A stretch of DNA of 64,000 nucleotides from Bacteroidota bacterium (GTDB lineage Bacteria; Bacteroidota; Bacteroidia; Sphingobacteriales; Sphingobacteriaceae). This document shows positions 3,374 to 16,066 of the stretch, one piece after another. The position numbers and the translations under genes were made by a program. The stretch covers positions 1 to 64,000 of the forward strand of contig JAJYRG010000002.1 in assembly GCA_021794195.1 (NCBI GenBank). Direction: 5' to 3'. The notes under the pieces are model-generated. The model was not told where the DNA came from and searched no databases. It saw only the letters and a program-made list of their open reading frames with translations. Positions within the stretch are counted from its first letter, which is position 1. Each line of letters opens with the position of its first letter.

Positions 3374-3399
3374 ATAAACTATGATAAACTATGATAAAC
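3374..3399 (+). repeat. 10-bp tandem duplication (atgataaact) over the first gene's start codon
   Basis: ataaact-atgataaact-atgataaac; ATGs at 3381 (short out-of-frame ORF) and 3391 (glycosyltransferase ORF). Confidence 0.8.
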
Positions 3400-4494
3400 A
3401 ATATAAGATTGACCTTATGTACTACAGTTATGAATAGGTTAGATTATCTAAAAATTACGCTTCCTCAAAACATCATAGATAACATTGGTTGTATAAATAA
3501 ATTAGAATTTCTTATTCTAGACTATAGTTCTAGTGACGGTTTAAGGGATTGGTTATATCCAAATTATGATGACATGTTATCGGATGGAACTATGAGCTAT
3601 TATCGAATTGAGAACAAAAGTTCTTACAACCATAGCCACGCTAAAAATCAAGCATTTAAACTTGCTAAAGGTCAGATTGTATGTAACATAGATGCTGACA
3701 ACTTTACCGGGCCACATTTTGCCGAATACCTGATCGATCAGTTCGATGTGAAAGAAAGCATATTTCTATCGACGACGTCACGCACATTCCTTTCATCCAA
3801 AACGAAAGACTGGATTACTGGAGGTAGCGACATTTTAGGCAAAATAGCTGTCCGTAAGAGCGACTTTCTACGCGTACGCGGATATGATGAAGACTTTACC
3901 GGATATGGTTTTGAGGATGCAGATTTGATAAACCGACTGGAATTGTTGGGGTTAAGAAGAATTGTCATGGATGATCATAAATTTAGAAATGCCCTACCAC
4001 ACGAAGATTCCTTGAGAAAAACAGATCGAATCAAATCTGACGTTTATATCAAGCAAAAGACATTTTATGAGACCTATTACTTGGTACTACGTGACGATAA
4101 TTCGCTCGTCTCGGCGGCAATGATCAACACGGCAACGCTACATGCGACAAACAAATCAAGGCTGACAAACCCTATAGAAACACAATTCGAATACGATGTC
4201 CGTGAAGAGTCAGTTTGTACGGGGTTTTGGCAAGACATGGACGAAGGAACACTATTCGTGAACAAACTAAGCTTACCAAGCCAAATGTATTTAAAAACAT
4301 CCTTCGGATTAGAATCGAGTAATTTTCATCGGCCAACCGAATTTCTGCACCACATCAAAAACGAAAAAATGGCACAAGAGATCATCATGTTTCATGAGAC
4401 CATCACGAATCGTCGAAAGATGATGCAGAATTATCATTTCAACACGATTCAAGTGAATACAAAAAATTGGCTGAGCGATACTCCTACTCATTAA
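3391..4494 (+). CDS. GT-A fold family 2 / galactosyltransferase-type glycosyltransferase
   Basis: TLCTTVMNRLDYLKITLPQNI..., DxD in IVCNIDADNFTG, and C-terminal GYDEDFTGYGFEDADLINRL (Glyco_transf_7C-like). Confidence 0.75.
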   Translation: MINNIRLTLCTTVMNRLDYLKITLPQNIIDNIGCINKLEFLILDYSSSDGLRDWLYPNYDDMLSDGTMSYYRIENKSSYNHSHAKNQAFKLAKGQIVCNIDADNFTGPHFAEYLIDQFDVKESIFLSTTSRTFLSSKTKDWITGGSDILGKIAVRKSDFLRVRGYDEDFTGYGFEDADLINRLELLGLRRIVMDDHKFRNALPHEDSLRKTDRIKSDVYIKQKTFYETYYLVLRDDNSLVSAAMINTATLHATNKSRLTNPIETQFEYDVREESVCTGFWQDMDEGTLFVNKLSLPSQMYLKTSFGLESSNFHRPTEFLHHIKNEKMAQEIIMFHETITNRRKMMQNYHFNTIQVNTKNWLSDTPTH

Positions 4495-4502
4495 CATACA
4501 CT

Positions 4503-5375
4503 ATGGAATCAAAAAAATATACTGCGGCACGTTTCAGCGTTTTTATAGGCATGGAAGATTGGCATTCCATCATGCATATTATCAAGCCATTAATCATAGT
4601 TGACAATTCCGAAAAATTCGTCATCTATCTGTCGACTACTCGTGGAGAATGTATCAACTTTACATACCTATTCAGCGAGTTAGATGCAGATCAACAGCAT
4701 CGTCTCCACGCCATTATTGAACATATTGAATCTTTTCTGATGCGATACGATAGCGAATCGACACATGATTTAATCAATAACAACGACGAAATATTTAAGG
4801 ATTTTCCGTCACGAATGATCTATTATAACATACATGATAATACGCTGAAAAATTTCAATCGCGAGGAGAATGACTTATACTTACAGGAGATCAAAGAAGT
4901 TTTGACGCATTTTAGTTTGGATACCTTGCTGACGGAAGAGGTTTCTTATCCGTCGCTACTTTACTGGACCGTATGTTACCTCGGAGTTATTGCAAACAGT
5001 ATACACATTTCTCAAGAGATATTAGAGCACATCCGTAAGCTCGATATTGCCCATCACGGTGATAGCAACCTGTTATCGACAAGCCTAATTGAAGAATACA
5101 TCGAACTCGTTGTTGAAAGCCAAGAAGCGACGCGACGTCCACATCATTTCGCTACACTGGAATCGGCGCTCAAGAAAATAAGCATCCAACTGCACGCGCA
5201 TAAAGAGGAGAGTCGAGACATTTTACACATTGCCTTTGATTTGCTCACACATATAGAAAACCATCTCGGCATTGACATGGCCAATATATTACGCATTATG
5301 GAATGCTGGAATCTCCGAAAGGCCAAACAGCCAGAAAAATGTCGCGGTACGGTGCTTTTTGGACATACATTTTAG
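4503..5375 (+). CDS. Possible stand-alone LanB C-terminal / thiopeptide-type bacteriocin biosynthesis domain protein
   Basis: ATG at 4503 (the track's 4467 start is TTG and overlaps the upstream gene). N-term YTAARFSVFIGMEDWHSIMHIIKPLI and C-term ILHIAFDLLTHIENHLGID resemble the start and the 'LxHMxxNRLxG' end of SpaB_C/TIGR03891-like domains. The call is tentative. Confidence 0.4.
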   Translation: MESKKYTAARFSVFIGMEDWHSIMHIIKPLIIVDNSEKFVIYLSTTRGECINFTYLFSELDADQQHRLHAIIEHIESFLMRYDSESTHDLINNNDEIFKDFPSRMIYYNIHDNTLKNFNREENDLYLQEIKEVLTHFSLDTLLTEEVSYPSLLYWTVCYLGVIANSIHISQEILEHIRKLDIAHHGDSNLLSTSLIEEYIELVVESQEATRRPHHFATLESALKKISIQLHAHKEESRDILHIAFDLLTHIENHLGIDMANILRIMECWNLRKAKQPEKCRGTVLFGHTF

Positions 5376-5433
5376 ACAAACTTGGGAAGCCGAAAACAAG
5401 TACTAGAGTAGGCACAATTTTAAATTTATTTTT

Positions 5434-5595
5434 ATGAAAAAGTTAAATTTCCCGGAAATCAACGCCGTTGATTTCAACAACCTCAAAAAAATGGGTAGAG
5501 GCAGAATGAAAAGTGTTAAAGGCGGATACACAGCCAACACAGTGACGATACCTGGTGGTACCGACGATGGAGACGATGGCATCCGTAACGACTAA
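5434..5595 (+). CDS. RiPP precursor peptide with GG-type leader (53 aa), Bacteroidota natural-product precursor type
   Basis: Read directly: MKKLNFPEINAVDFNNLKKMGRGRMKSVKGG|YTANTVTIPGGTDDGDDGIRND. The MKKL start and RMKSVKGG end resemble C39-cleaved TIGR04149-like leaders; adjacent to ATP-grasp and SPASM maturases. Missing from the track because all listed ORFs are at least 60 aa. Confidence 0.85.
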   Translation: MKKLNFPEINAVDFNNLKKMGRGRMKSVKGGYTANTVTIPGGTDDGDDGIRND

Positions 5596-5607
5596 TCGTT
5601 TTAATAT

Positions 5608-5636
5608 ACTGGGGTGAATACGTGTATTCCCCCAGT
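5608..5636 (+). terminator. Strong hairpin just after the precursor gene (terminator/attenuator or RNA-stabilising element)
   Basis: ACTGGGG-T-GAATAC...GTATTC-CCCCAGT, paired except for one bulged T; 12 nt after the precursor stop; downstream T-tract weak. Confidence 0.65.
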
Positions 5637-5739
5637 TATTTAGTTTGATGATACGCATATAGTTTTATGATGATCTCCTTTGATCATGTATTGTCAGCAG
5701 AACCTATTTAGAGTCGTACACTATTAATAATATACGCCA

Positions 5740-6726
5740 ATGATTTTACTGCTAACCGGTGATGGTGATTTGTCGACAGATCTCGTGATGGATGTGTTGA
5801 AATACTATGATTATCCGCACTACAGAATAAATTCTTACGATCTCCTGGATGCTGGATTTTGTATTGATATTTCCGACAATCGCTACACGATGGCTGTGAA
5901 CGGGCAGGAGATAGATCTGAAAACAGTAGGTGCAGTTTGGTTTCGCAAGTTTGGATTTTTCCGAAAAAGCCAGCAATATCAATCGATATTCCGAACCTTC
6001 GGAACTGACGTGGCAGATAATATATCCAAGGAGTTTTCTTCGGTACTCGGTGCGGTAACCGGCGTTTTAAAAGACAAAACGTGGTTGACATTGCCGGAGG
6101 CAACAAACTTAAACAAGATTGAAGTACTTATCGAAGCCTCCAATTGCGGCATTAATATCCCCAATTCAGTCGTTACTACGTCCAAAACGGTTTTACAAGA
6201 CAATCCCGATTTGTACATCACGAAATCGATTAAAGATCCTTGGATCTTACGAAAATCTGAGGCAAAATCCGACATATTTACCATGTTTACGACCGTTGTA
6301 AAGCAAACGGATCTACCGCATATTCCAAGCGTATTCTTCCCTTCATTGATTCAGAAAAAAGTAGAAAAGGAATATGAAATTCGGAGCTTCTTTCTAGCTG
6401 GAAAGTTCTATTCTATGGCGATTTTCTCGCAATTGGATGATCAAACCGAAGTGGACTTCCGCAGATACAACTGGCAAGTACCCAATAGAACTGTTCCATA
6501 TACACTTCCGAAAGAGTTGGAAAGGAAATTAAAAAAACTCATTAAGCGCTTTAAATTGAATTGTTGCTCGGTGGATCTTATACGCAACAAAGAGGGTAAC
6601 TACTTCTTTTTAGAAATTAATCCTACCGGACAATTCGGAATGGTAGATTTTCCCTGCAACTACAACCTGCATCACGAAGTTGCGCGAACATTGATAAAGA
6701 TGGATCACAAAAGCCTTGCGTCATGA
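5740..6726 (+). CDS. gwsG: ATP-grasp peptide maturase (grasp-with-spasm type, graspetide ligase)
   Basis: MILLLTGDGDLSTDLVMDVLKYYDYPHYRIN...; GAVWFRKFGFF; EYEIRSFFLAGKFYSMAIFSQ; YFFLEINPTGQFGMVDFPCNYNLHHEVA: ATP-grasp architecture of MvdD/GwsG-like ligases. Confidence 0.85.
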   Translation: MILLLTGDGDLSTDLVMDVLKYYDYPHYRINSYDLLDAGFCIDISDNRYTMAVNGQEIDLKTVGAVWFRKFGFFRKSQQYQSIFRTFGTDVADNISKEFSSVLGAVTGVLKDKTWLTLPEATNLNKIEVLIEASNCGINIPNSVVTTSKTVLQDNPDLYITKSIKDPWILRKSEAKSDIFTMFTTVVKQTDLPHIPSVFFPSLIQKKVEKEYEIRSFFLAGKFYSMAIFSQLDDQTEVDFRRYNWQVPNRTVPYTLPKELERKLKKLIKRFKLNCCSVDLIRNKEGNYFFLEINPTGQFGMVDFPCNYNLHHEVARTLIKMDHKSLAS

Positions 6727-6941
6727 AAAAGTTTATCACAGAAATCGATAACCGATCTGATAAGTCGCTCTTATCATTAAATTCCTTATTGGCAGAAGAA
6801 CTCGGCAAATATGCGGAGTTACCTGTGCCTGCGCAGGAATTTATGCCATCTTGCGCGTATCACCACAACAAGAGTTACGATACGCAGCCATTTCATAAAC
6901 ATATTACACGAATGATCGAAAACTTTAAAGATGATGAATAA
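6723..6941 (+). CDS. Small conserved-context protein of RiPP operon, unknown function
   Basis: 72-aa ORF; ATGA overlap with the ATP-grasp gene and overlap with the SPASM gene, so translationally coupled. Confidence 0.6.
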   Translation: MKKFITEIDNRSDKSLLSLNSLLAEELGKYAELPVPAQEFMPSCAYHHNKSYDTQPFHKHITRMIENFKDDE

Positions 6942-7941
6942 ATATTTCCTGCTGTTTTCATGTTGTGTACCCGTTAAAGGTGCCAAAAGAAGTATTGTTT
7001 GCGACCTGCAACGCGAAGACTATCTTTCTATACCCAATGTGCTCTACGAAATCCTAGCCACATTTCGCGGACGCAGTATAGTAGATATTAAAGGATACTT
7101 CAATCACGCGCACGATGCCGTTATCGATGACTACTTTATGTATTTAAAAGATAAACAATATGGATTTTTCACCGACGATCCCGCACAATTTCCACTTTTA
7201 GATACCAAACATTTTTTCAACTATCAGACAATTACCAATGCTGTAGTTGATTTTGATGACAATTCAAAACACGACATGAAAACTATTGTCGATCAATTAT
7301 CGGCATTGGGTTGCGAATCGCTGGAGATCCGTTTTTTTTCATACTATACACTTAGCGCGATTGAAGAACTTCTGAACTCCACACAAGGTTCTACATTACG
7401 ATCAATACAACTGCTGGTGAAATACGGGGACGATTATACGGAGGAAAGCATTTTAATGCTACAGCGGAAAATTCCCCGACTAAAACGCATATTGGTTCAT
7501 TCCGCTCCTACGGATCAATTGCACGAACACACCGACATAATTCTCTATTTCTGTCAGGAAAAAGTTTCATCGGAGCAATGCTGTGGAGTAGTGAATCCTT
7601 GGTATTTCACCATCAACACGCCTTCGTTCGTCGAAGCAAAATCGTATAACTCTTGTTTAAACAAGAAGATTGGCATCGACACGCAGGGACGTATCAAAAA
7701 CTGCCCTTCGATGGAAAAATCGTATGGAAATATCCAAACGAAAACCTTAGATGATATCGTACATCATACAGATTTTAGAAACGTGTGGTCTTTAGCAAAA
7801 GATAAAATTGAGGTTTGTAAGGACTGTGAGTTCAGGTATATATGTCAAGATTGCCGTGCCTACATTAGTGATAAGGACAACATCCTATCAAAACCGATTA
7901 AATGTAATTATAACCCGTATAACGATGTAAACTATGCATAA
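6931..7941 (+). CDS. gwsS: SPASM-domain peptide maturase (grasp-with-spasm type) without radical-SAM cluster motif
   Basis: C-terminal NSCLNKKIGIDTQGRIKNCPSMEKSYGNI...VCKDCEFRYICQDCRAY is a SPASM cysteine pattern; no CX3CX2C anywhere in the N-terminal half. Confidence 0.82.
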   Translation: MMNKYFLLFSCCVPVKGAKRSIVCDLQREDYLSIPNVLYEILATFRGRSIVDIKGYFNHAHDAVIDDYFMYLKDKQYGFFTDDPAQFPLLDTKHFFNYQTITNAVVDFDDNSKHDMKTIVDQLSALGCESLEIRFFSYYTLSAIEELLNSTQGSTLRSIQLLVKYGDDYTEESILMLQRKIPRLKRILVHSAPTDQLHEHTDIILYFCQEKVSSEQCCGVVNPWYFTINTPSFVEAKSYNSCLNKKIGIDTQGRIKNCPSMEKSYGNIQTKTLDDIVHHTDFRNVWSLAKDKIEVCKDCEFRYICQDCRAYISDKDNILSKPIKCNYNPYNDVNYA

Positions 7942-8764
7942 AGTTAGAGTCATAATTTTAACAAAACTAGTAGCTACTTTGCTCTTAAGTGGATGTAGCG
8001 GGTACAAATTTTTGTCAAATGGCGTAATGGTAGATGGAGACCCAACTTACTACAACGAGGAATCTCAAATTGCTTTGGACGTGTTTGGCGATTATACGCT
8101 GTATAATGAAGATACAGAAAAAGGTTTCTCGACGACAAAACTAGATCGGTTGGATAAGAAATTGTTGCGTAAGCTTAAAGTTTCGAAACACGCTAAAGTG
8201 CTTTTTTCAGGCACTCCAGATACGCAACCATTTTATAACGTAGTCGCATTGGTCGAGCAAAATAATATAGACCAAAAGTCGCCAATTGATCAAGGTTACC
8301 AGCCGTTCACGGAAGGAGATCAATTGTTGTATTACTACAACAAATCCGAACTGATGAACAAGCGCATCTACCATGCGATAATTCCACGAGCCACGGCTAA
8401 CATTCATTTACTCTATTATCAAAATACTGACGACGACTGTGTATACTGTGATATTGAGCAACTGGCTAAAATGAACAGTTCATCCGCGGAGCGCAAGGCA
8501 ATATCTTATCCAAACACAACTTTTGAGGCAACGGATGGTATGGTAAAAACTGTTCAAATAGAGATTCCACAGCGCAAGAAAGCAGACGATTTGGGTGTTG
8601 TAAAGTTTTACGATGCAAACAAACGTATGTTTCTTGGCTTTTCAGTAATCGAAGGAAATCAGGATAGCTTAACATTCTCGCTACCTCCGGGTAATTACAG
8701 TTGGAAGTACACTGCGCTTAATGGACAAATCCTGTCAGAAGATACGTTAACTATTCAGCCTTAG
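7934..8764 (+). CDS. Putative lipoprotein of RiPP operon
   Basis: N-term signal with lipobox LLLSGCSG; CVYC pair; C-terminal region looks like a beta-sandwich. Confidence 0.65.
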   Translation: MHKVRVIILTKLVATLLLSGCSGYKFLSNGVMVDGDPTYYNEESQIALDVFGDYTLYNEDTEKGFSTTKLDRLDKKLLRKLKVSKHAKVLFSGTPDTQPFYNVVALVEQNNIDQKSPIDQGYQPFTEGDQLLYYYNKSELMNKRIYHAIIPRATANIHLLYYQNTDDDCVYCDIEQLAKMNSSSAERKAISYPNTTFEATDGMVKTVQIEIPQRKKADDLGVVKFYDANKRMFLGFSVIEGNQDSLTFSLPPGNYSWKYTALNGQILSEDTLTIQP

Positions 8765-10969
8765 ATGGATATTTCATTACCTAGCAGTTTTCCCTATTAC
8801 CGACAATTCGATAGCATGGATTGTGGTCCGGCCTGCCTCAAAATGATTGCCAGGTATTACGGTCATAAATTCGCTATGCATACACTTCGGGAAAAAGTAG
8901 ATATTGAGCGGGAAGGCGGATCGTTGCTAGGTCTATGCGATGCGGCCAATTCGATCGGTTATAAGGCGATGGCTGCTGAGCTTACTTGGGACGAACTTTC
9001 TTCAAAAATTGCATTGCCCTGTATTATACATTGGAACGGCAATCACTTTGTTGTGGTCTACAAGATTTCTAAACCCCACGTATATATTGCTGATCCGTCG
9101 AAAGGAAAAATAAAATATCCGAAAAGCATATTCTTGCATAAATGGATGATGGAAGATGAAAAATACATTCATTCTGGTACACGTGGAGCCGCACTGGTAC
9201 TCTATCCTACCGAAGAAATCATCGAAGAGGAAGATCATGCACAAAATATATCTTCTATGCGTAGTATCTTCGGCTACTTTTTGAGATACAAGAAATTACT
9301 ATTTCAGCTGCTGCTCGGCTTTCTACTCGCGAGCCTCATCCAATTGACCTTACCATTTCTTACGCAATCGTTGGTAGATATTGGGATTAAAGGACAGGAT
9401 TTGTCCTTTATTTATTTAGTATTGCTAGCGCAAATAATGCTTTTATGCGGTCAGGTGCTGATAGACCTCACAAGAGCTTGGGTTTTACTTCACATCAGTA
9501 CGCGCATCAACCTTTCGATCGTATCGGATTTCATCCGAAAATTATTAAGACTACCGATCACCTACTTTGAGACTCGTCAAACCGGCGATATCCTTCAACG
9601 CATCAAAGATCATAAAAGACTGGAAGAATTTATTACTGGAAATACTGTTTCAGTTGTGTTTTCACTTTTCACCGTCGTAATTTTCTCGATTATTCTATCG
9701 TTCTATTACATTCCGATATTCATCACTTTTGTCGCTTTTTCACTCGCCTATATCGGTTGGATTTTTTTCTTTTTAAAATACAGACGCAAGATTGATATAC
9801 AACGCTTTGAAATACAATCGATCAATCAAGGTGCTATGATTGAGTTGATACAGGGAGTTAAGGAGATAAAACTTACCAACAGCGAAAAGCTAAAACGATG
9901 GACTTGGGAAGATATACAATTGAAGGATTTCAAACTGCAAATACGCGGGCTTACATTGACCCAATATCAGGAAGTTGGCGGTACGTTTATCAATCAGGGG
10001 AAGAATATCATAATTACATTTATTTCTGCAATTGCCGTTATTAATGGATTAATTTCGATTGGTGAGATGATAGCCATCCAATTTATTATTGGTCAATTAA
10101 ATAGTCCTATTCAACAGTTCATACAGTTTATACAATCTTTTCAAGATGCAAAATTAAGCTTACTTCGTCTGAACGAAATTCAGCAAGAACAAGACGAGGA
10201 AAATACAACCGATCATCGTGTTGTCCAACTGCCGGAACAAGGCGACATAACGTTCAACAACGTTAGCTTTACCTATCCCGGTGCGGGAAACACCGCAGTT
10301 TTACAAAATTTAAATTTCAAAATTCCACAAGGCAAAACTACTGCAATAGTGGGATCAAGCGGTGGCGGAAAAACCTCGATTTGCAAACTCTTATTAAAGT
10401 ATTACACACCGACTAGGGGAACTATAACAGTTGGCGACGTTGACTTCAGAACAATTTCGCACCGAAAATGGCGCTCGTATTGTTCAAGTGTCTTACAAGA
10501 TAGCTTTATCTTTTCCGACACGATCGAAAATAACATTGGAATTGGATGTGAATCAATCGATACAGACACTATTGTGACTGCAGCAAAGCTGGCCAATATT
10601 CACGAGTTTATCAATGCACTACCTCTCCAATACAAAACACGAATTGGTGATGAAGGAAACGGCATCAGCCAAGGACAACGTCAACGTATTTTACTGGCAC
10701 GCGCATTCGCAAAGAATCCTCGGTTTATATTCTTAGACGAAGCGACTAATGCATTAGATGCAAACAATGAGGGACAAATACTCGACAATCTGGATCACTT
10801 TCTCGCCGGCCGAACGGCATTGATCGTCGCTCACCGATTGAGCACCATCCGAAAAGCAGATAATATTATCGTGTTGAAAGATGGTTACGTGTCTGAACAA
10901 GGTACACACGAAGAACTTATTGGTTTACAAGGCGAATATTATCAATTGGTCACAAAGCAATTGTCTTGA
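8765..10969 (+). CDS. Peptidase-domain (C39) ABC transporter/exporter
   Basis: N-term FPYYRQFDSMDCGPACLKMIARYYG with HWNGNHFVVVYK and DPSKG (C39 Cys/His/Asp); ABC Walker A GSSGGGKTS, ISQGQRQRILLARAF, FLDEATNALD. Confidence 0.95.
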   Translation: MDISLPSSFPYYRQFDSMDCGPACLKMIARYYGHKFAMHTLREKVDIEREGGSLLGLCDAANSIGYKAMAAELTWDELSSKIALPCIIHWNGNHFVVVYKISKPHVYIADPSKGKIKYPKSIFLHKWMMEDEKYIHSGTRGAALVLYPTEEIIEEEDHAQNISSMRSIFGYFLRYKKLLFQLLLGFLLASLIQLTLPFLTQSLVDIGIKGQDLSFIYLVLLAQIMLLCGQVLIDLTRAWVLLHISTRINLSIVSDFIRKLLRLPITYFETRQTGDILQRIKDHKRLEEFITGNTVSVVFSLFTVVIFSIILSFYYIPIFITFVAFSLAYIGWIFFFLKYRRKIDIQRFEIQSINQGAMIELIQGVKEIKLTNSEKLKRWTWEDIQLKDFKLQIRGLTLTQYQEVGGTFINQGKNIIITFISAIAVINGLISIGEMIAIQFIIGQLNSPIQQFIQFIQSFQDAKLSLLRLNEIQQEQDEENTTDHRVVQLPEQGDITFNNVSFTYPGAGNTAVLQNLNFKIPQGKTTAIVGSSGGGKTSICKLLLKYYTPTRGTITVGDVDFRTISHRKWRSYCSSVLQDSFIFSDTIENNIGIGCESIDTDTIVTAAKLANIHEFINALPLQYKTRIGDEGNGISQGQRQRILLARAFAKNPRFIFLDEATNALDANNEGQILDNLDHFLAGRTALIVAHRLSTIRKADNIIVLKDGYVSEQGTHEELIGLQGEYYQLVTKQLS

Positions 10970-11033
10970 TGGTCTTTTAAAGCATCATGTAAGTAACATT
11001 CCCTTTTTAGATAAAAGTATTGATTAGAAAAAA

Positions 11034-11735
11034 ATGGCAAATAAAGATTTGGAAGATATAAACCCGAATGTCAAAGAGGTGATGACCAAAGTGCCTGGAT
11101 GGGTAACCAACTGGGGGACTTTCACTGTGTTCGCGGCTTTGGTTTTATTACTTCTAACGACATTATTGATCCGGAAACGTGTTGTTGCCGATGCTATATT
11201 GACCATCGACATGTCGCGTTCACAAATCGCGATAGCTGTACCGATTGGCACAAAGCAAATTAACACAAGCCTAAAGCATGGCCAACATATCGTGCGGAAC
11301 GATACGATAGGTACTTTCGGAGACGAGAATAACGTGATCGTATCTCCCGAAAGCGGCAACATTTACTTTGCAAACGTTAATGAAAGCGGAAATATATGGA
11401 AGGCGGATTCTGCTTTCCTATTGAGAGTTGAAAACCCCAATATGCTCGGAAGTATGGATATTCCCGCGAAACACTTAGAAAGCATAAAAAGTCAGAAAGA
11501 AATAGAAATGATCTATCAAAACCCCAAAGATGGTAATTCCGTATACGGTAAATACAGCTTTAAAATACTGTCCCCGATACTGGTAAAGAATAATAATTTC
11601 CGCGTATGGCTCGATTTAAAGGATGTGCAGACCGACAACGACCAATTAATGGTCGATGTTTTGGACATGCCTGCACAGGTGGTTATATCCAATGAACGCT
11701 TGTTAACATCCGTGATTCCGGTTTTAACATTTTAA
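11034..11735 (+). CDS. HlyD-like periplasmic adaptor (short)
   Basis: Single N-terminal TM (FAALVLLLLTTLLI), lipoyl-like segment GTKQINTSLKHGQHIVRNDTIGTF...VIVSPESGNIYF; directly downstream of the ABC exporter. Confidence 0.65.
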   Translation: MANKDLEDINPNVKEVMTKVPGWVTNWGTFTVFAALVLLLLTTLLIRKRVVADAILTIDMSRSQIAIAVPIGTKQINTSLKHGQHIVRNDTIGTFGDENNVIVSPESGNIYFANVNESGNIWKADSAFLLRVENPNMLGSMDIPAKHLESIKSQKEIEMIYQNPKDGNSVYGKYSFKILSPILVKNNNFRVWLDLKDVQTDNDQLMVDVLDMPAQVVISNERLLTSVIPVLTF

Positions 11736-11739
11736 TGTC

Positions 11740-14142
11740 ATGAAAAATTATCTAGCTCTACTGTTTCTATTCACTATTGCAGGAGTCACGAAAGGATTTC
11801 AGCGGGACTCCTCGGACGTAATTATAACGGGTAAAGTGTTGGACATGAATGCAAAATCTCCCATAGCACATGTGTTGATTGACATACAGGATCCAGTTCA
11901 AAACACGCATATATCGACATCAATAAGCGATTCAACTGGATCATTCACATTTAATGTTAAAAAAGGGACAGCATACAAATTGATCTTCGACGCAATGACG
12001 CACGTGACGAAAACAATGGATATTAGCGTACCAAAGCAAATCGAACAAACATATTATGACATTGGGCACATAGCATTGACAAAAGACACCATTGCTCTCG
12101 AAGAGATTAGTGTGACTGCCTCTCGTCCTTTGGTCAGACAAGAGATTGATCGCATTGCGTATAGCGTGAAAGACGACCCTGAAAATAGTGTGCAATCCAC
12201 ATTAGATATGATGCAAAAAGTACCGCTCATGGCCGTTGACGGTTCAAATAACGTGGAGCTCAAAGGAAGCCGAAATTTCAAAGTTCTTTTAAACGGAAGG
12301 CCTTCTGCTCTATTCAACAATGACCTGGCGGGTGCTTTGCGTGCCATTCCTGCCAACAGAATAGATCGCATCGAAGTCATTATATCGCCTCCGGCAAAAT
12401 ATGATTCCGAAGGTTTGGACGGTTTAGTAAATATTGTTATGTTGGAAAATAACTTGGAGGGATTCAAGGGAAGCGTTTCCGCTGCATACAATAATCCATT
12501 CGGTGCTATTGGAAGTACTAGTGCAACGTATAAAAAAGGAAAAATTGGCGTGGATGGATTTCTCTATTACTTCAACCAAAGCCAACCGAGTACCGCGTTT
12601 GGCGGAGATGCTAACTTTCCAAATAATGGAAGAATCATTGCGCAAAATGGCACACAAAAGTACAATGGAGATGTACTGAATGGGAATTTGCAGTTGAATT
12701 ACGAGATCGATACTTTGAATACCCTTATCGTGAGCTACAACAGAAAACTCAACGATTTTCATCGAACGGCTCAACTACAGCAAAAAATAACGTCTTCGAA
12801 TCAAGGTATATCGAATTTCATTGATCAGAATTCCTTTCCCAACTGGCGTTCAACGGATGTCGATGTAAATTATCAGCACATTTTCAAAGGCAAGAAATAT
12901 AAAACATTGAATTTCGGATACAAACATGCAAATTCGAAAAACGATATCGCCGATAATATTCGTTTATGGGATATACAAACGCCGGGGCAATCAGATGCAT
13001 TCGATCAAGAGAGCAACACAACATTTCTAGAGAACTCTGTACAAGTCGATTATTCGGACAAGATCAAAAATATTGTTATGGAAACGGGAGCGAAAATTAG
13101 TTTCCGCGAAAATCGAAGCACCTTTTATCAGAGAATACATGATGCAACACCGATCGATTTCCGATACATTCACAATGTGTACAACCTATACAAAAGTCTA
13201 GAATATTCAACCGAAAAATATGGTGTAAAAGTGGGTGCACGCTTCGATGCCACAACTTTACCGACCTTACCCGGCGAAAACGATGGTCGCTTTTTCTGGC
13301 GTATTTTACCCTCGGTTAATTTACAACAGAAGCAAGAAAAAAGTTCTATCAATCTATCGTACAACCAACGCATTCAACGACCAAATATCAATGAAATGAA
13401 TCCATTCGTCGATCAGTCAAATCCGTTGTTCGTTTCTTTCGGTAATCCGTTGTTGAGGCCAACAATTTCCAACAATTTTAATCTTTCATTTTCCAAAATG
13501 GGAAAGGGTGCGACTATTTTTGGTTTGGGATATAGCTTCATCGATAACAACATCGAACAAATCACGCAGTTAGCTAGTGATTCAATATTGAACACCTCAT
13601 TTGTCAATATTGGTCACGCAAGAGATATCAACTTCAATGTCAGTATAAATCAACCAATCACCAAGAAATTGCGTTTAAATGTCAACGGATTAATTAGTTA
13701 TCTTCGATTGAAAGGAAACATCGCCAACGAAGCGTTTGGGAATGATGGATTTCGTGGAAATATCCGTGTTTTATTGAACTATGAGCTTCAGAATAAGCTC
13801 CGACTTGGAACGAGCTTTAATTATATCGCGCCGACCGTATTATTACAAGGAAACACCAATGGATTTCCGACATTTTCATTTACGGCATCTAAAACGTTCT
13901 TGAATGAAAAGCTGACCATTTTCGGATCGGTCAATAATCCGTTTACGAAATTCTATACAAACACCCGAACCTTAAATACAGGTGACTTCCAACAACACGC
14001 ATTTTCTCAGGTATATTACCGATCATTCGTGGTCACGCTGACCTATAATTTTGGTAAGCTAAAAAGTTATTTGGCTTCGCCAACGCGAGCCATTAAATCG
14101 GACGATATCAGACCAACAGAAAATAAACTCGATAAGCTATGA
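11740..14142 (+). CDS. Outer membrane beta-barrel / TonB-dependent receptor family protein with CarboxypepD_reg-like N-terminal domain
   Basis: Signal peptide; VIITGKVLDMNAKSPIAHVLIDI..., plug-like VRQEIDRIAYSVKDDPENSVQSTLDMMQKVPLMAVDGSNNVELKGSRNFKVLLNGRPS, then repeated beta-barrel strands (NLSYNQRIQRPNINEMNPF). Confidence 0.85.
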   Translation: MKNYLALLFLFTIAGVTKGFQRDSSDVIITGKVLDMNAKSPIAHVLIDIQDPVQNTHISTSISDSTGSFTFNVKKGTAYKLIFDAMTHVTKTMDISVPKQIEQTYYDIGHIALTKDTIALEEISVTASRPLVRQEIDRIAYSVKDDPENSVQSTLDMMQKVPLMAVDGSNNVELKGSRNFKVLLNGRPSALFNNDLAGALRAIPANRIDRIEVIISPPAKYDSEGLDGLVNIVMLENNLEGFKGSVSAAYNNPFGAIGSTSATYKKGKIGVDGFLYYFNQSQPSTAFGGDANFPNNGRIIAQNGTQKYNGDVLNGNLQLNYEIDTLNTLIVSYNRKLNDFHRTAQLQQKITSSNQGISNFIDQNSFPNWRSTDVDVNYQHIFKGKKYKTLNFGYKHANSKNDIADNIRLWDIQTPGQSDAFDQESNTTFLENSVQVDYSDKIKNIVMETGAKISFRENRSTFYQRIHDATPIDFRYIHNVYNLYKSLEYSTEKYGVKVGARFDATTLPTLPGENDGRFFWRILPSVNLQQKQEKSSINLSYNQRIQRPNINEMNPFVDQSNPLFVSFGNPLLRPTISNNFNLSFSKMGKGATIFGLGYSFIDNNIEQITQLASDSILNTSFVNIGHARDINFNVSINQPITKKLRLNVNGLISYLRLKGNIANEAFGNDGFRGNIRVLLNYELQNKLRLGTSFNYIAPTVLLQGNTNGFPTFSFTASKTFLNEKLTIFGSVNNPFTKFYTNTRTLNTGDFQQHAFSQVYYRSFVVTLTYNFGKLKSYLASPTRAIKSDDIRPTENKLDKL

Positions 14143-14885
14143 GTACACATGCAAATAGTTCAAACCGTATAGTTCAATCTTTATGGATTGACGATGAAAT
14201 TACCGATCTGCAACGTATGTGCTACAATTCCTTTCGTGCACACGGACACCTCGTGAAGCTGTATTCATACGGACAGATCAATAATTTGCCCCAAGGTGTC
14301 GTGCTATGTGATGCCAACGAAATACTGCCTTTCGACAATGTATTTCGCGACCAATATAATTCGTACGCAACATTTTCCGATTGGTTTAGAATAGCACTTT
14401 TGAATGCGCGTGGCGGATGGTGGGTTGATTCGGACGTGATTTGTTTAAAGCATTTTCACTTGGAAGACGATTACGCATTCGCGACAGAACAGGCAGATCA
14501 AAACGGCAACATTACCATCTGCAACGCCGTAATAAAATCACCAGCAAATGCACCGCTATTACTCGGAATTTTAGCGGACATTGGCGATCTACTAAAAGAG
14601 AAAAATACTACGGATATACAATGGACAGAGATTGGTGCCGGCCTGCTCACGAAGCATATAGTAAATGAAAACAGGCAGGAAAGTGTATTAGATCCGGCTG
14701 TATTTTGTCCGATCAACTTCTTCGACTATAAAAATATGCTCACCAAGGAGGCGAAGCAACTATCTGAAGAAGCGTACGCTATTCATCTTTGGAATAAGAT
14801 GTGGGATTGGTTTGGCATGGAGGGAAACTTAAATCCAGCTGAAAATTCGCTGATGCAGACCCTTCGTAGAACGTATCTTTCCTGA
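14139..14885 (+). CDS. DXD-motif glycosyltransferase (Gly_transf_sug / Gb3-synthase-like)
   Basis: IVQSLWIDDEITDLQRMCYNSFRAHGH, FSDWFRIALLNARGGWWVDSDVICLK, WNKMWDWFGM. Confidence 0.8.
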   Translation: MSTHANSSNRIVQSLWIDDEITDLQRMCYNSFRAHGHLVKLYSYGQINNLPQGVVLCDANEILPFDNVFRDQYNSYATFSDWFRIALLNARGGWWVDSDVICLKHFHLEDDYAFATEQADQNGNITICNAVIKSPANAPLLLGILADIGDLLKEKNTTDIQWTEIGAGLLTKHIVNENRQESVLDPAVFCPINFFDYKNMLTKEAKQLSEEAYAIHLWNKMWDWFGMEGNLNPAENSLMQTLRRTYLS

Positions 14886-16066
14886 TGGATTTATCCAATA
14901 AATTCCAAAAAACCAATAATCGTAGAAGGAGCATGAAAAACAATTTTAGAAAGGATAGATTTCGTACAGTCTCTTTTACTTATACCGAGGACCAGGTAGC
15001 GTATCTGAAAGCAGATTGGCAAGATTATCTATCGGATATCGGCGAATTTCCGCGAGATAGATATCAGGGAAAAGGAATCGTATATACGGCCGGAGGCGTG
15101 AGCTATGTGACCTGCTTGTGGGTATCAATTTCGCAGTTAAGGAATACAGGATGTACATTGCCAATAGAAGTATGGTACGTGGGAAATGAGATTTCGGATG
15201 AGATCATCGCAGAATTTAGGGGTTTGGATGTGATTTTCAAGGATTTTAATCACTATACAAATGTCAATCAAAGAGGTTATATATTGAAACCCTTGGCGAT
15301 TTTGAATAGTAGTTTTAAAGAAGTTTTATTTCTGGATGCAGACAATATCTGTGTAAAAGATCCAAATTACTTATTCGAGAGCGTAGAATACCGAGCGCAT
15401 GGTGCTCTATTTTGGCCAGACTTTTGGAAAACCGGAAAAAGCAATTCTATTTGGAAAATCACAGGTGTAAAACCGAAAGATCTTATTGAACAAGAAAGCG
15501 GACAAATACTCATCGACGTGGAAAGCTGTTGGAAAGCATTAAATCTATGTCTGTATTTTAATCGTCTAGGCGAATACTATTACCGCATTTTATTGGGCGA
15601 TAAAGATACATTCAAGTTTAGCTGGCTCGCCAGTAACACCGACTACTATATGATCGATTTGCTTCCTGGTAGTTGCGGACGAATCGTAGACGGTGTATTT
15701 ATAGGCAACACAATGGTTCAATTTGGTACGGATCATTCCATCCTGTTTTTACATAGAAATCTTTTGAAGTGGGACGTTACACACGACGATGAAAGAGTGT
15801 GGGAATATGTTCAACGGTACATGCCAAACTCAACTAATAAAAAAATATCTCAAAAAATAACAAAAGACGGCTTGTACTCTATTGAGTTATTGGGTGATGT
15901 ATCGGGGACTGACGCTCGAAATTTGGAAATAAATATTCCTGCATTGGAAGATCGATGCCTGAACTACCTAAAGTATTTTCGCCAACTTAAGAGCTACTCA
16001 GATTATCTTTTATTCGATCATTTTGCTAAAAATAGACACAGATCAGGAGTATACTTCAAAGTGTGA
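14885..16066 (+). CDS. Glycosyltransferase resembling alpha-mannosyltransferase (MNN1/GT71-like)
   Basis: GIVYTAGGVSYVTCLWVSISQLRNTGCTLPIEVWYVGNE, VLFLDADNICVKDPNYLFES, GALFWPDFWKTG, ESGQILIDVESCWKAL. Confidence 0.75.
   Translation: MDLSNKFQKTNNRRRSMKNNFRKDRFRTVSFTYTEDQVAYLKADWQDYLSDIGEFPRDRYQGKGIVYTAGGVSYVTCLWVSISQLRNTGCTLPIEVWYVGNEISDEIIAEFRGLDVIFKDFNHYTNVNQRGYILKPLAILNSSFKEVLFLDADNICVKDPNYLFESVEYRAHGALFWPDFWKTGKSNSIWKITGVKPKDLIEQESGQILIDVESCWKALNLCLYFNRLGEYYYRILLGDKDTFKFSWLASNTDYYMIDLLPGSCGRIVDGVFIGNTMVQFGTDHSILFLHRNLLKWDVTHDDERVWEYVQRYMPNSTNKKISQKITKDGLYSIELLGDVSGTDARNLEINIPALEDRCLNYLKYFRQLKSYSDYLLFDHFAKNRHRSGVYFKV

Follow-up and report, generated by a model that had tools for sequence, protein, structure and literature searches.

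The window analysed here is a stretch of 64,000 nucleotides from a bacterium of the family Sphingobacteriaceae (Bacteroidota; assembly GCA_021794195.1, contig JAJYRG010000002.1, positions 1 to 64,000). A tight rightward gene run spans its positions 3391-16066, and inside this run lies a short, overlooked gene which we consider likely to encode the precursor of a graspetide matured by the adjoining ATP-grasp ligase GwsG, a member of the grasp-with-spasm (GwS) systems. The order of genes is precursor, gwsG, LPL-like gene, gwsS, lipoprotein and C39 exporter. The first part of the locus reads as follows:

5434-5595, plus strand: putative precursor peptide gene, overlooked (reading frame translation, alignment of homologues A7, weak leader matches)
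5434-5526, plus strand: predicted precursor leader, 31 residues, with GG at its end
5527-5592, plus strand: predicted precursor core, 22 residues, followed by the stop codon
5608-5636, plus strand: RNA hairpin between precursor and gwsG (z -4.1)
5740-6726, plus strand: GwsG, grasp-with-spasm ATP-grasp peptide ligase, i.e. graspetide synthetase (TIGR04192)

The reading frame begins with ATG at 5434, ends with the TAA that closes at 5595 and gives 53 residues; the translation is letter for letter the one offered in the original prediction of a small gene at this place. The 22-residue core behind GG, YTANTVTIPGGTDDGDDGIRND, holds four Thr and five Asp and is free of Lys, Ser, Cys and Glu. In a profile search the leader matched NF047798, NF047792 and TIGR04149 weakly, in every case below cut-off. 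The precursor gene is positioned upstream of gwsG, from which it is separated by 144 bases.

Eight further homologues of the precursor are present in seven other genomes, all of them immediately 5´ of gwsG. They come from Sphingobacterium sp. JB170 (L002), G053 (two copies), Candidatus Symbiothrix (L003), Paludibacter (L004), Tannerella forsythia (L005), Porphyromonadaceae COT-184 (L006) and G935 (L071). The window genome and G057 fall in one genus, and the locus of G057 is the same as that of JB170. The precursor profile search gave E 5e-24 in the window genome and 3e-16 to 3e-24 in distant genomes; a search of plasmids gave no match. Alignment A7 comprises the resulting nine precursor sequences from eight loci, and nine of its columns are invariant in all of them: G30, G31, T33, T36, T38, G46, D47, D48 and D53. 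In core numbering, the invariant residues include three Thr (T2, T5, T7) and three Asp (D16, D17, D22), D22 being the C-terminal residue. The fourth Thr (T12) and D13 vary among the nine sequences, T12 being also found in one of the G053 copies, and D14 is present in every homologue except that of G935.

These results bear on several earlier proposals. Small frames beside gwsG had been named as the place to look; homologues were found there at syntenic loci, and their Thr and Asp positions could be aligned. The proposed partnership of a GG-leader RiPP (ribosomally synthesized and post-translationally modified peptide) precursor with the gwsG ATP-grasp is borne out by adjacency of the homologues to gwsG and by the invariant GG, as is the TxxTxT donor block by its three invariant Thr. 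The DDGDD acceptor block needs revision: D16 and D17 are invariant, but D13 and D14 are not, and the C-terminal D22 has to be added. Similarly, only T2, T5 and T7 of the four core Thr are conserved, while T12 is not.

The precursors of the window and JB170 are set apart by about 7.5 synonymous changes and 4.5 nonsynonymous ones. The dN/dS of about 0.13, based on few changes, indicates that the precursor evolves under purifying selection. Shuffling of the core recreated the T..T.T...GDD...D-end pattern in 4-133 of 200,000 shuffles per sequence. Because the homologues adjoin gwsG, the dN/dS ratio is low and the pattern is rare in shuffled cores, the precursor stands far beyond chance.

A scan for promoter and terminator in the window gave signal not above shuffles. 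The hairpin behind the precursor was found at an equivalent place in all five loci folded (z -2.4 to -6.1), and a compensatory change of a U-A to an A-U pair distinguishes the window from JB170. It is probably an attenuator or a processing stem, giving an excess of precursor over enzyme transcripts.

GwsG scores 275 bits against the curated TIGR04192 cut-off of 230, it is the single match to this family in the window genome, and it is 92% identical to the ATP-grasp of the JB170 locus. Its profile matches the solved AMdnB (7m4s), the ATP-grasp ligases 5ig8 and 5ig9, and CdnC (7mgv). E213, R215, D279, E292 and N294 are invariant in 11 homologues and represent candidate ATP or metal ligands. In the GwsG tree, loci with T..T.T/GDD precursors group on one side (support 77/84; 78% of bootstrap trees), and none of 500 label shuffles gave a value as low for grouping by precursor type. 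Plasmid-borne gwsG shows at most 35% identity among the matches listed (10 of 14 records), and three distant ATP-grasp matches on viral contigs (at most 28% identity) are not relevant.

Precursors of other appearance stand beside other gwsG genes. A plasmid of Hymenobacter canadensis (NZ_CP114769.1; L072, 4936-6719) carries about ten near-identical tandem GG precursors (MQNSLQTLE...AGG...) directly 5´ of gwsG. A putative precursor in genome G101 (L041, 8208-8507) has the reversed order, i.e. an Asp-rich block and then a Ser/Thr block. The GwS locus of G935 (L071, 2254-13068) includes a genuine radical-SAM gene, another GG peptide and a pair of DUF6734 genes.

Two further candidates for maturation proteins follow gwsG:

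6723-6941, plus strand: LPL-family-like small protein, 72 residues (position, L[SP]LN motif)
6931-7941, plus strand: GwsS, SPASM-domain peptide maturase lacking the radical-SAM motif (TIGR04193)

The 72-residue protein is encoded directly 5´ of the SPASM gene and has the motif LSLN, which reads LPLN in L003 and L041. By motif and position alone it fits the LPL family, and it is a putative leader-binding or partner protein. GwsS scores 311 bits against the TIGR04193 cut-off of 175 and carries the SPASM cysteines; an N-terminal CC is invariant in 11 homologues. In Chryseobacterium, the GwsS homologues (L007, 10138-11133; L010, 10135-11130) are devoid of some SPASM cysteines that are kept elsewhere.

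The core could be imagined to receive radical carbon or thioether cross-links from a SPASM protein, instead of or besides esters. The CX3CX2C motif, the mark of sactipeptide and ranthipeptide maturases, was sought in 11 GwsS homologues and found in none, which makes radical-SAM chemistry by GwsS unlikely, and Cys is missing from the window core. We regard such cross-links as very improbable.

We suggest instead that 5434-5595 encodes a GwS graspetide precursor with esters between T2/T5/T7 and D16/D17/D22, exported through the C39 route, and we hold this to be likely. GwsG, aided by the leader, the LPL-like protein and the SPASM partner, would phosphorylate the side-chain carboxylates of D16, D17 and D22. 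The hydroxyls of T2, T5 and T7 would then attack, resulting in three omega-ester macrolactones with net loss of three water molecules (-54 Da) and a predicted core [M+H]+ of 2212.97, against 2267.01 for the unmodified core. The C39 exporter would cleave after GG and secrete the core, and glycosyltransferases, as gene context suggests, may decorate the peptide. The number of rings to be expected is three and not four or five, because T12 is not conserved and D13 and D14 are not invariant. From T..T.T to GDD, Sphingobacterium and G935 have 7 residues, the other Bacteroidales 18-25. Since the donor-acceptor linker thus varies from 7 to 25 residues, the rings would hold a loop together at two fixed ends and leave its middle free.

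Several points weigh against this proposal. Firstly, the Thr-Asp esters, the number of rings and their connectivity are things we infer, and a literature search found no solved product for the GwS group. Secondly, the conserved Thr and Asp could serve other chemistry, such as glycosylation or recognition. Thirdly, D14, kept in all homologues but that of G935, could be an acceptor as well. Finally, support for the clade of shared precursor type in the GwsG tree is moderate.

The remaining proteins of the run, apart from the glycosyltransferases, are these:

4503-5375, plus strand: orphan protein of 290 residues (orthologue only in L002)
7934-8764, plus strand: lipoprotein with lipobox LLSGC (in the place of branch 5 "cluster 23" lipoproteins)
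8765-10969, plus strand: peptidase C39 (double-glycine) ABC exporter (PF03412 E 9e-37, PF00005, PF00664)
11034-11735, plus strand: possible HlyD-like periplasmic adaptor, weak (PF13437 E 0.07, under the cut-off; follows the C39 exporter)
11740-14142, plus strand: outer-membrane beta-barrel, TonB-receptor-like (PF14905 E 1.2e-67, PF07715)

The exporter is the sole C39 match found in the window genome. Cys21 of the lipoprotein is invariant across six lipoproteins of GwS loci, the remainder being very divergent, and its likeness to "cluster 23" is one of gene position only. Homologues of the beta-barrel are present in other GwS loci. A PADLOC search returned nothing. A tRNA-Asp gene at 2485-2559, about 0.8 kb 5´ of the cluster, marks a possible insertion site.

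The 290-residue protein matters for another class of product, a lanthipeptide or a dehydrated peptide with Dhb formed from Thr. The leader is faintly similar to GG leaders of Bacteroidota, LanB genes occur at other loci with the same glycosyltransferase, and a LanB-C-like protein had been suspected in the window. That suspicion was not upheld: the upstream protein has no significant Pfam or NCBIfam match, and a search of 247 class-level genomes recovered only the protein itself; JB170 alone supplied a homologue. Its AlphaFold model (pLDDT 38) was discarded as unusable. Among the scanned cluster proteins, none matched Lant_dehydr_N or Lant_dehydr_C (PF04738/PF14028), and the core contains no Cys. 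A lanthipeptide or Dhb peptide is thus extremely improbable, and with LanB, Cys and CX3CX2C all missing we set aside both this reading and that of radical cross-links.

The run begins and ends with glycosyltransferases:

3391-4494, plus strand: glycosyltransferase, GT2/GT7C-like, first in the run (PF10111, PF02709 and PF00535 over cut-off)
14139-14885, plus strand: DXD glycosyltransferase, Caps_synth/Gly_transf_sug/Gb3_synth (PF05704, PF04488 and PF04572 over cut-off)
14885-16066, plus strand: Mannosyl_trans3-type glycosyltransferase (PF11051 E 6e-39)

The first is 81% identical to its JB170 orthologue, and the second overlaps the preceding gene by 4 bases. Among the GwS loci compared, all three are common to the window and JB170 only. 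Of 94 Sphingobacterium genomes, 12 have Mannosyl_trans3 homologues. Eight further loci were read, and at seven of them the gene has as neighbours GG-leader proteins, a C39 exporter and/or LanB. With the window and JB170 excluded, no more than 12 kb separate it from a C39 peptidase in six of seven informative genomes, the chance of which is about 4e-12 as calculated from C39 counts per genome. In the seventh, G366, the two are far apart; G018 was not counted as informative, owing to the end of its contig. This suggests that the glycosyltransferases are a module re-used for exported peptides in Sphingobacterium. In L077, L089 and L091, the neighbours of the glycosyltransferase pair and the C39 exporter include GG-leader proteins of 300-370 residues (MKKKLKLAFEELERELALVSDVELVQVVGG...), unusually long for exported GG peptides.

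Two roles are imaginable for these enzymes. In the first, the graspetide backbone stays the same and one Thr (e.g. T12) receives a sugar, T2, T5 and T7 being engaged in esters. O-glycosylation had been mentioned earlier as an alternative fate of the Thr residues, and it gains weight because three glycosyltransferase genes share one tight run with the precursor. The PF11051 gene, moreover, recurs in the company of another glycosyltransferase, GG-leader proteins, and C39 or LanB genes; because of this recurrence a glycosylated graspetide is possible. However, precursors with the same core in G053 and Tannerella have no such glycosyltransferases nearby, so any sugar would stand outside the conserved chemistry; a G053 copy that lacks them has T12 all the same, and the acceptor of the cluster enzymes is putative. 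We therefore put this role forward tentatively. In the second, the enzymes make a surface glycan, either as protection for the producer or for display of the peptide, the peptide itself being untouched. Enzymes of the GT2, Caps_synth and mannosyltransferase families often take part in making surface glycans, and the cluster includes an outer-membrane beta-barrel. Against this, there are just three transferases, flippase, polymerase and sugar-nucleotide genes are absent among the typed proteins of the run, and the Mannosyl_trans3 gene recurs with peptide exporters; a surface glycan appears rather doubtful. As for the full picture, a peptide of 22 residues that has both three Thr-Asp ester rings and a sugar added by a module re-used across unrelated double-glycine clusters is a rather unlikely product. 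Among secondary modifications of graspetides, the main text of Carter et al. (PMC13097080) names acetylation, methyl ester/aspartimide, aminomalonate and 5-hydroxylysine isopeptide; glycosylation is not named there.

The system is of interest in several respects. GwS clusters occur widely among Bacteroidota, and oral species, for instance Tannerella forsythia, have them too. With no more and no fewer than three invariant donors and three invariant acceptors in a short precursor, the ring chemistry can be put to a direct test, and the residues that count are indicated. The system also bears on the role of a SPASM protein without radical-SAM motif in peptide maturation, and on whether Sphingobacterium glycosylates exported peptides.

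Judged from its proteins, the window system is a GwS system (TIGR04192 plus TIGR04193) of branch 5: a TIGR04192 ligase, an adjoining TIGR04193 protein and an LPL-type protein encoded directly 5´ of the SPASM gene are all there. According to the main text of Makarova et al. 2022 (PMC8939145), branch 5 features GG precursors, MKKL leaders, LPL, SPASM and lipoproteins, and its precursors, noted as very diverse, have conserved Thr/Ser and Asp/Glu. The window shares with it the ATP-grasp, the LPL-like gene before SPASM, the lipoprotein, the C39 exporter, the outer-membrane barrel, an MKKL-type GG leader and conserved Thr and Asp in the core. The system probably belongs to graspetide group 14, with all members of which a SPASM protein co-occurs (PMC13097080, main text). 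The subfamily differs from GwS as described by its three Thr in T..T.T and three Asp in GDD...D-end, a motif absent from the main texts of both papers; nor is the string DGDD found in the main text of PMC8939145. It differs also by the three glycosyltransferase genes and the orphan protein attached in two Sphingobacterium genomes.

With microviridin and chryseoviridin (group 1), the system shares a homologous ATP-grasp (PDB 5ig8, 5ig9, 7m4s, 7mgv) and rings between Thr and acidic residues, predicted here. Those peptides have a TxKxPSD core and Lys lactams and are made without a SPASM partner, whereas the window core has no Lys. Rosaritide (group 21; PMC13097080, main text) is similar in that three hydroxyl donors in its N-terminal part (S8, S9, T11) are linked to three Asp in its C-terminal part (D22, D24, D26), and in its dependence on a partner protein, but it differs in synthetase group, in spacing and in having a PPIase-like partner instead of SPASM and LPL. 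Taken together, the GwS kind is already known, though chemically uncharacterised; the window precursor would be a new member of it, and the glycosyltransferase module could be a new part.
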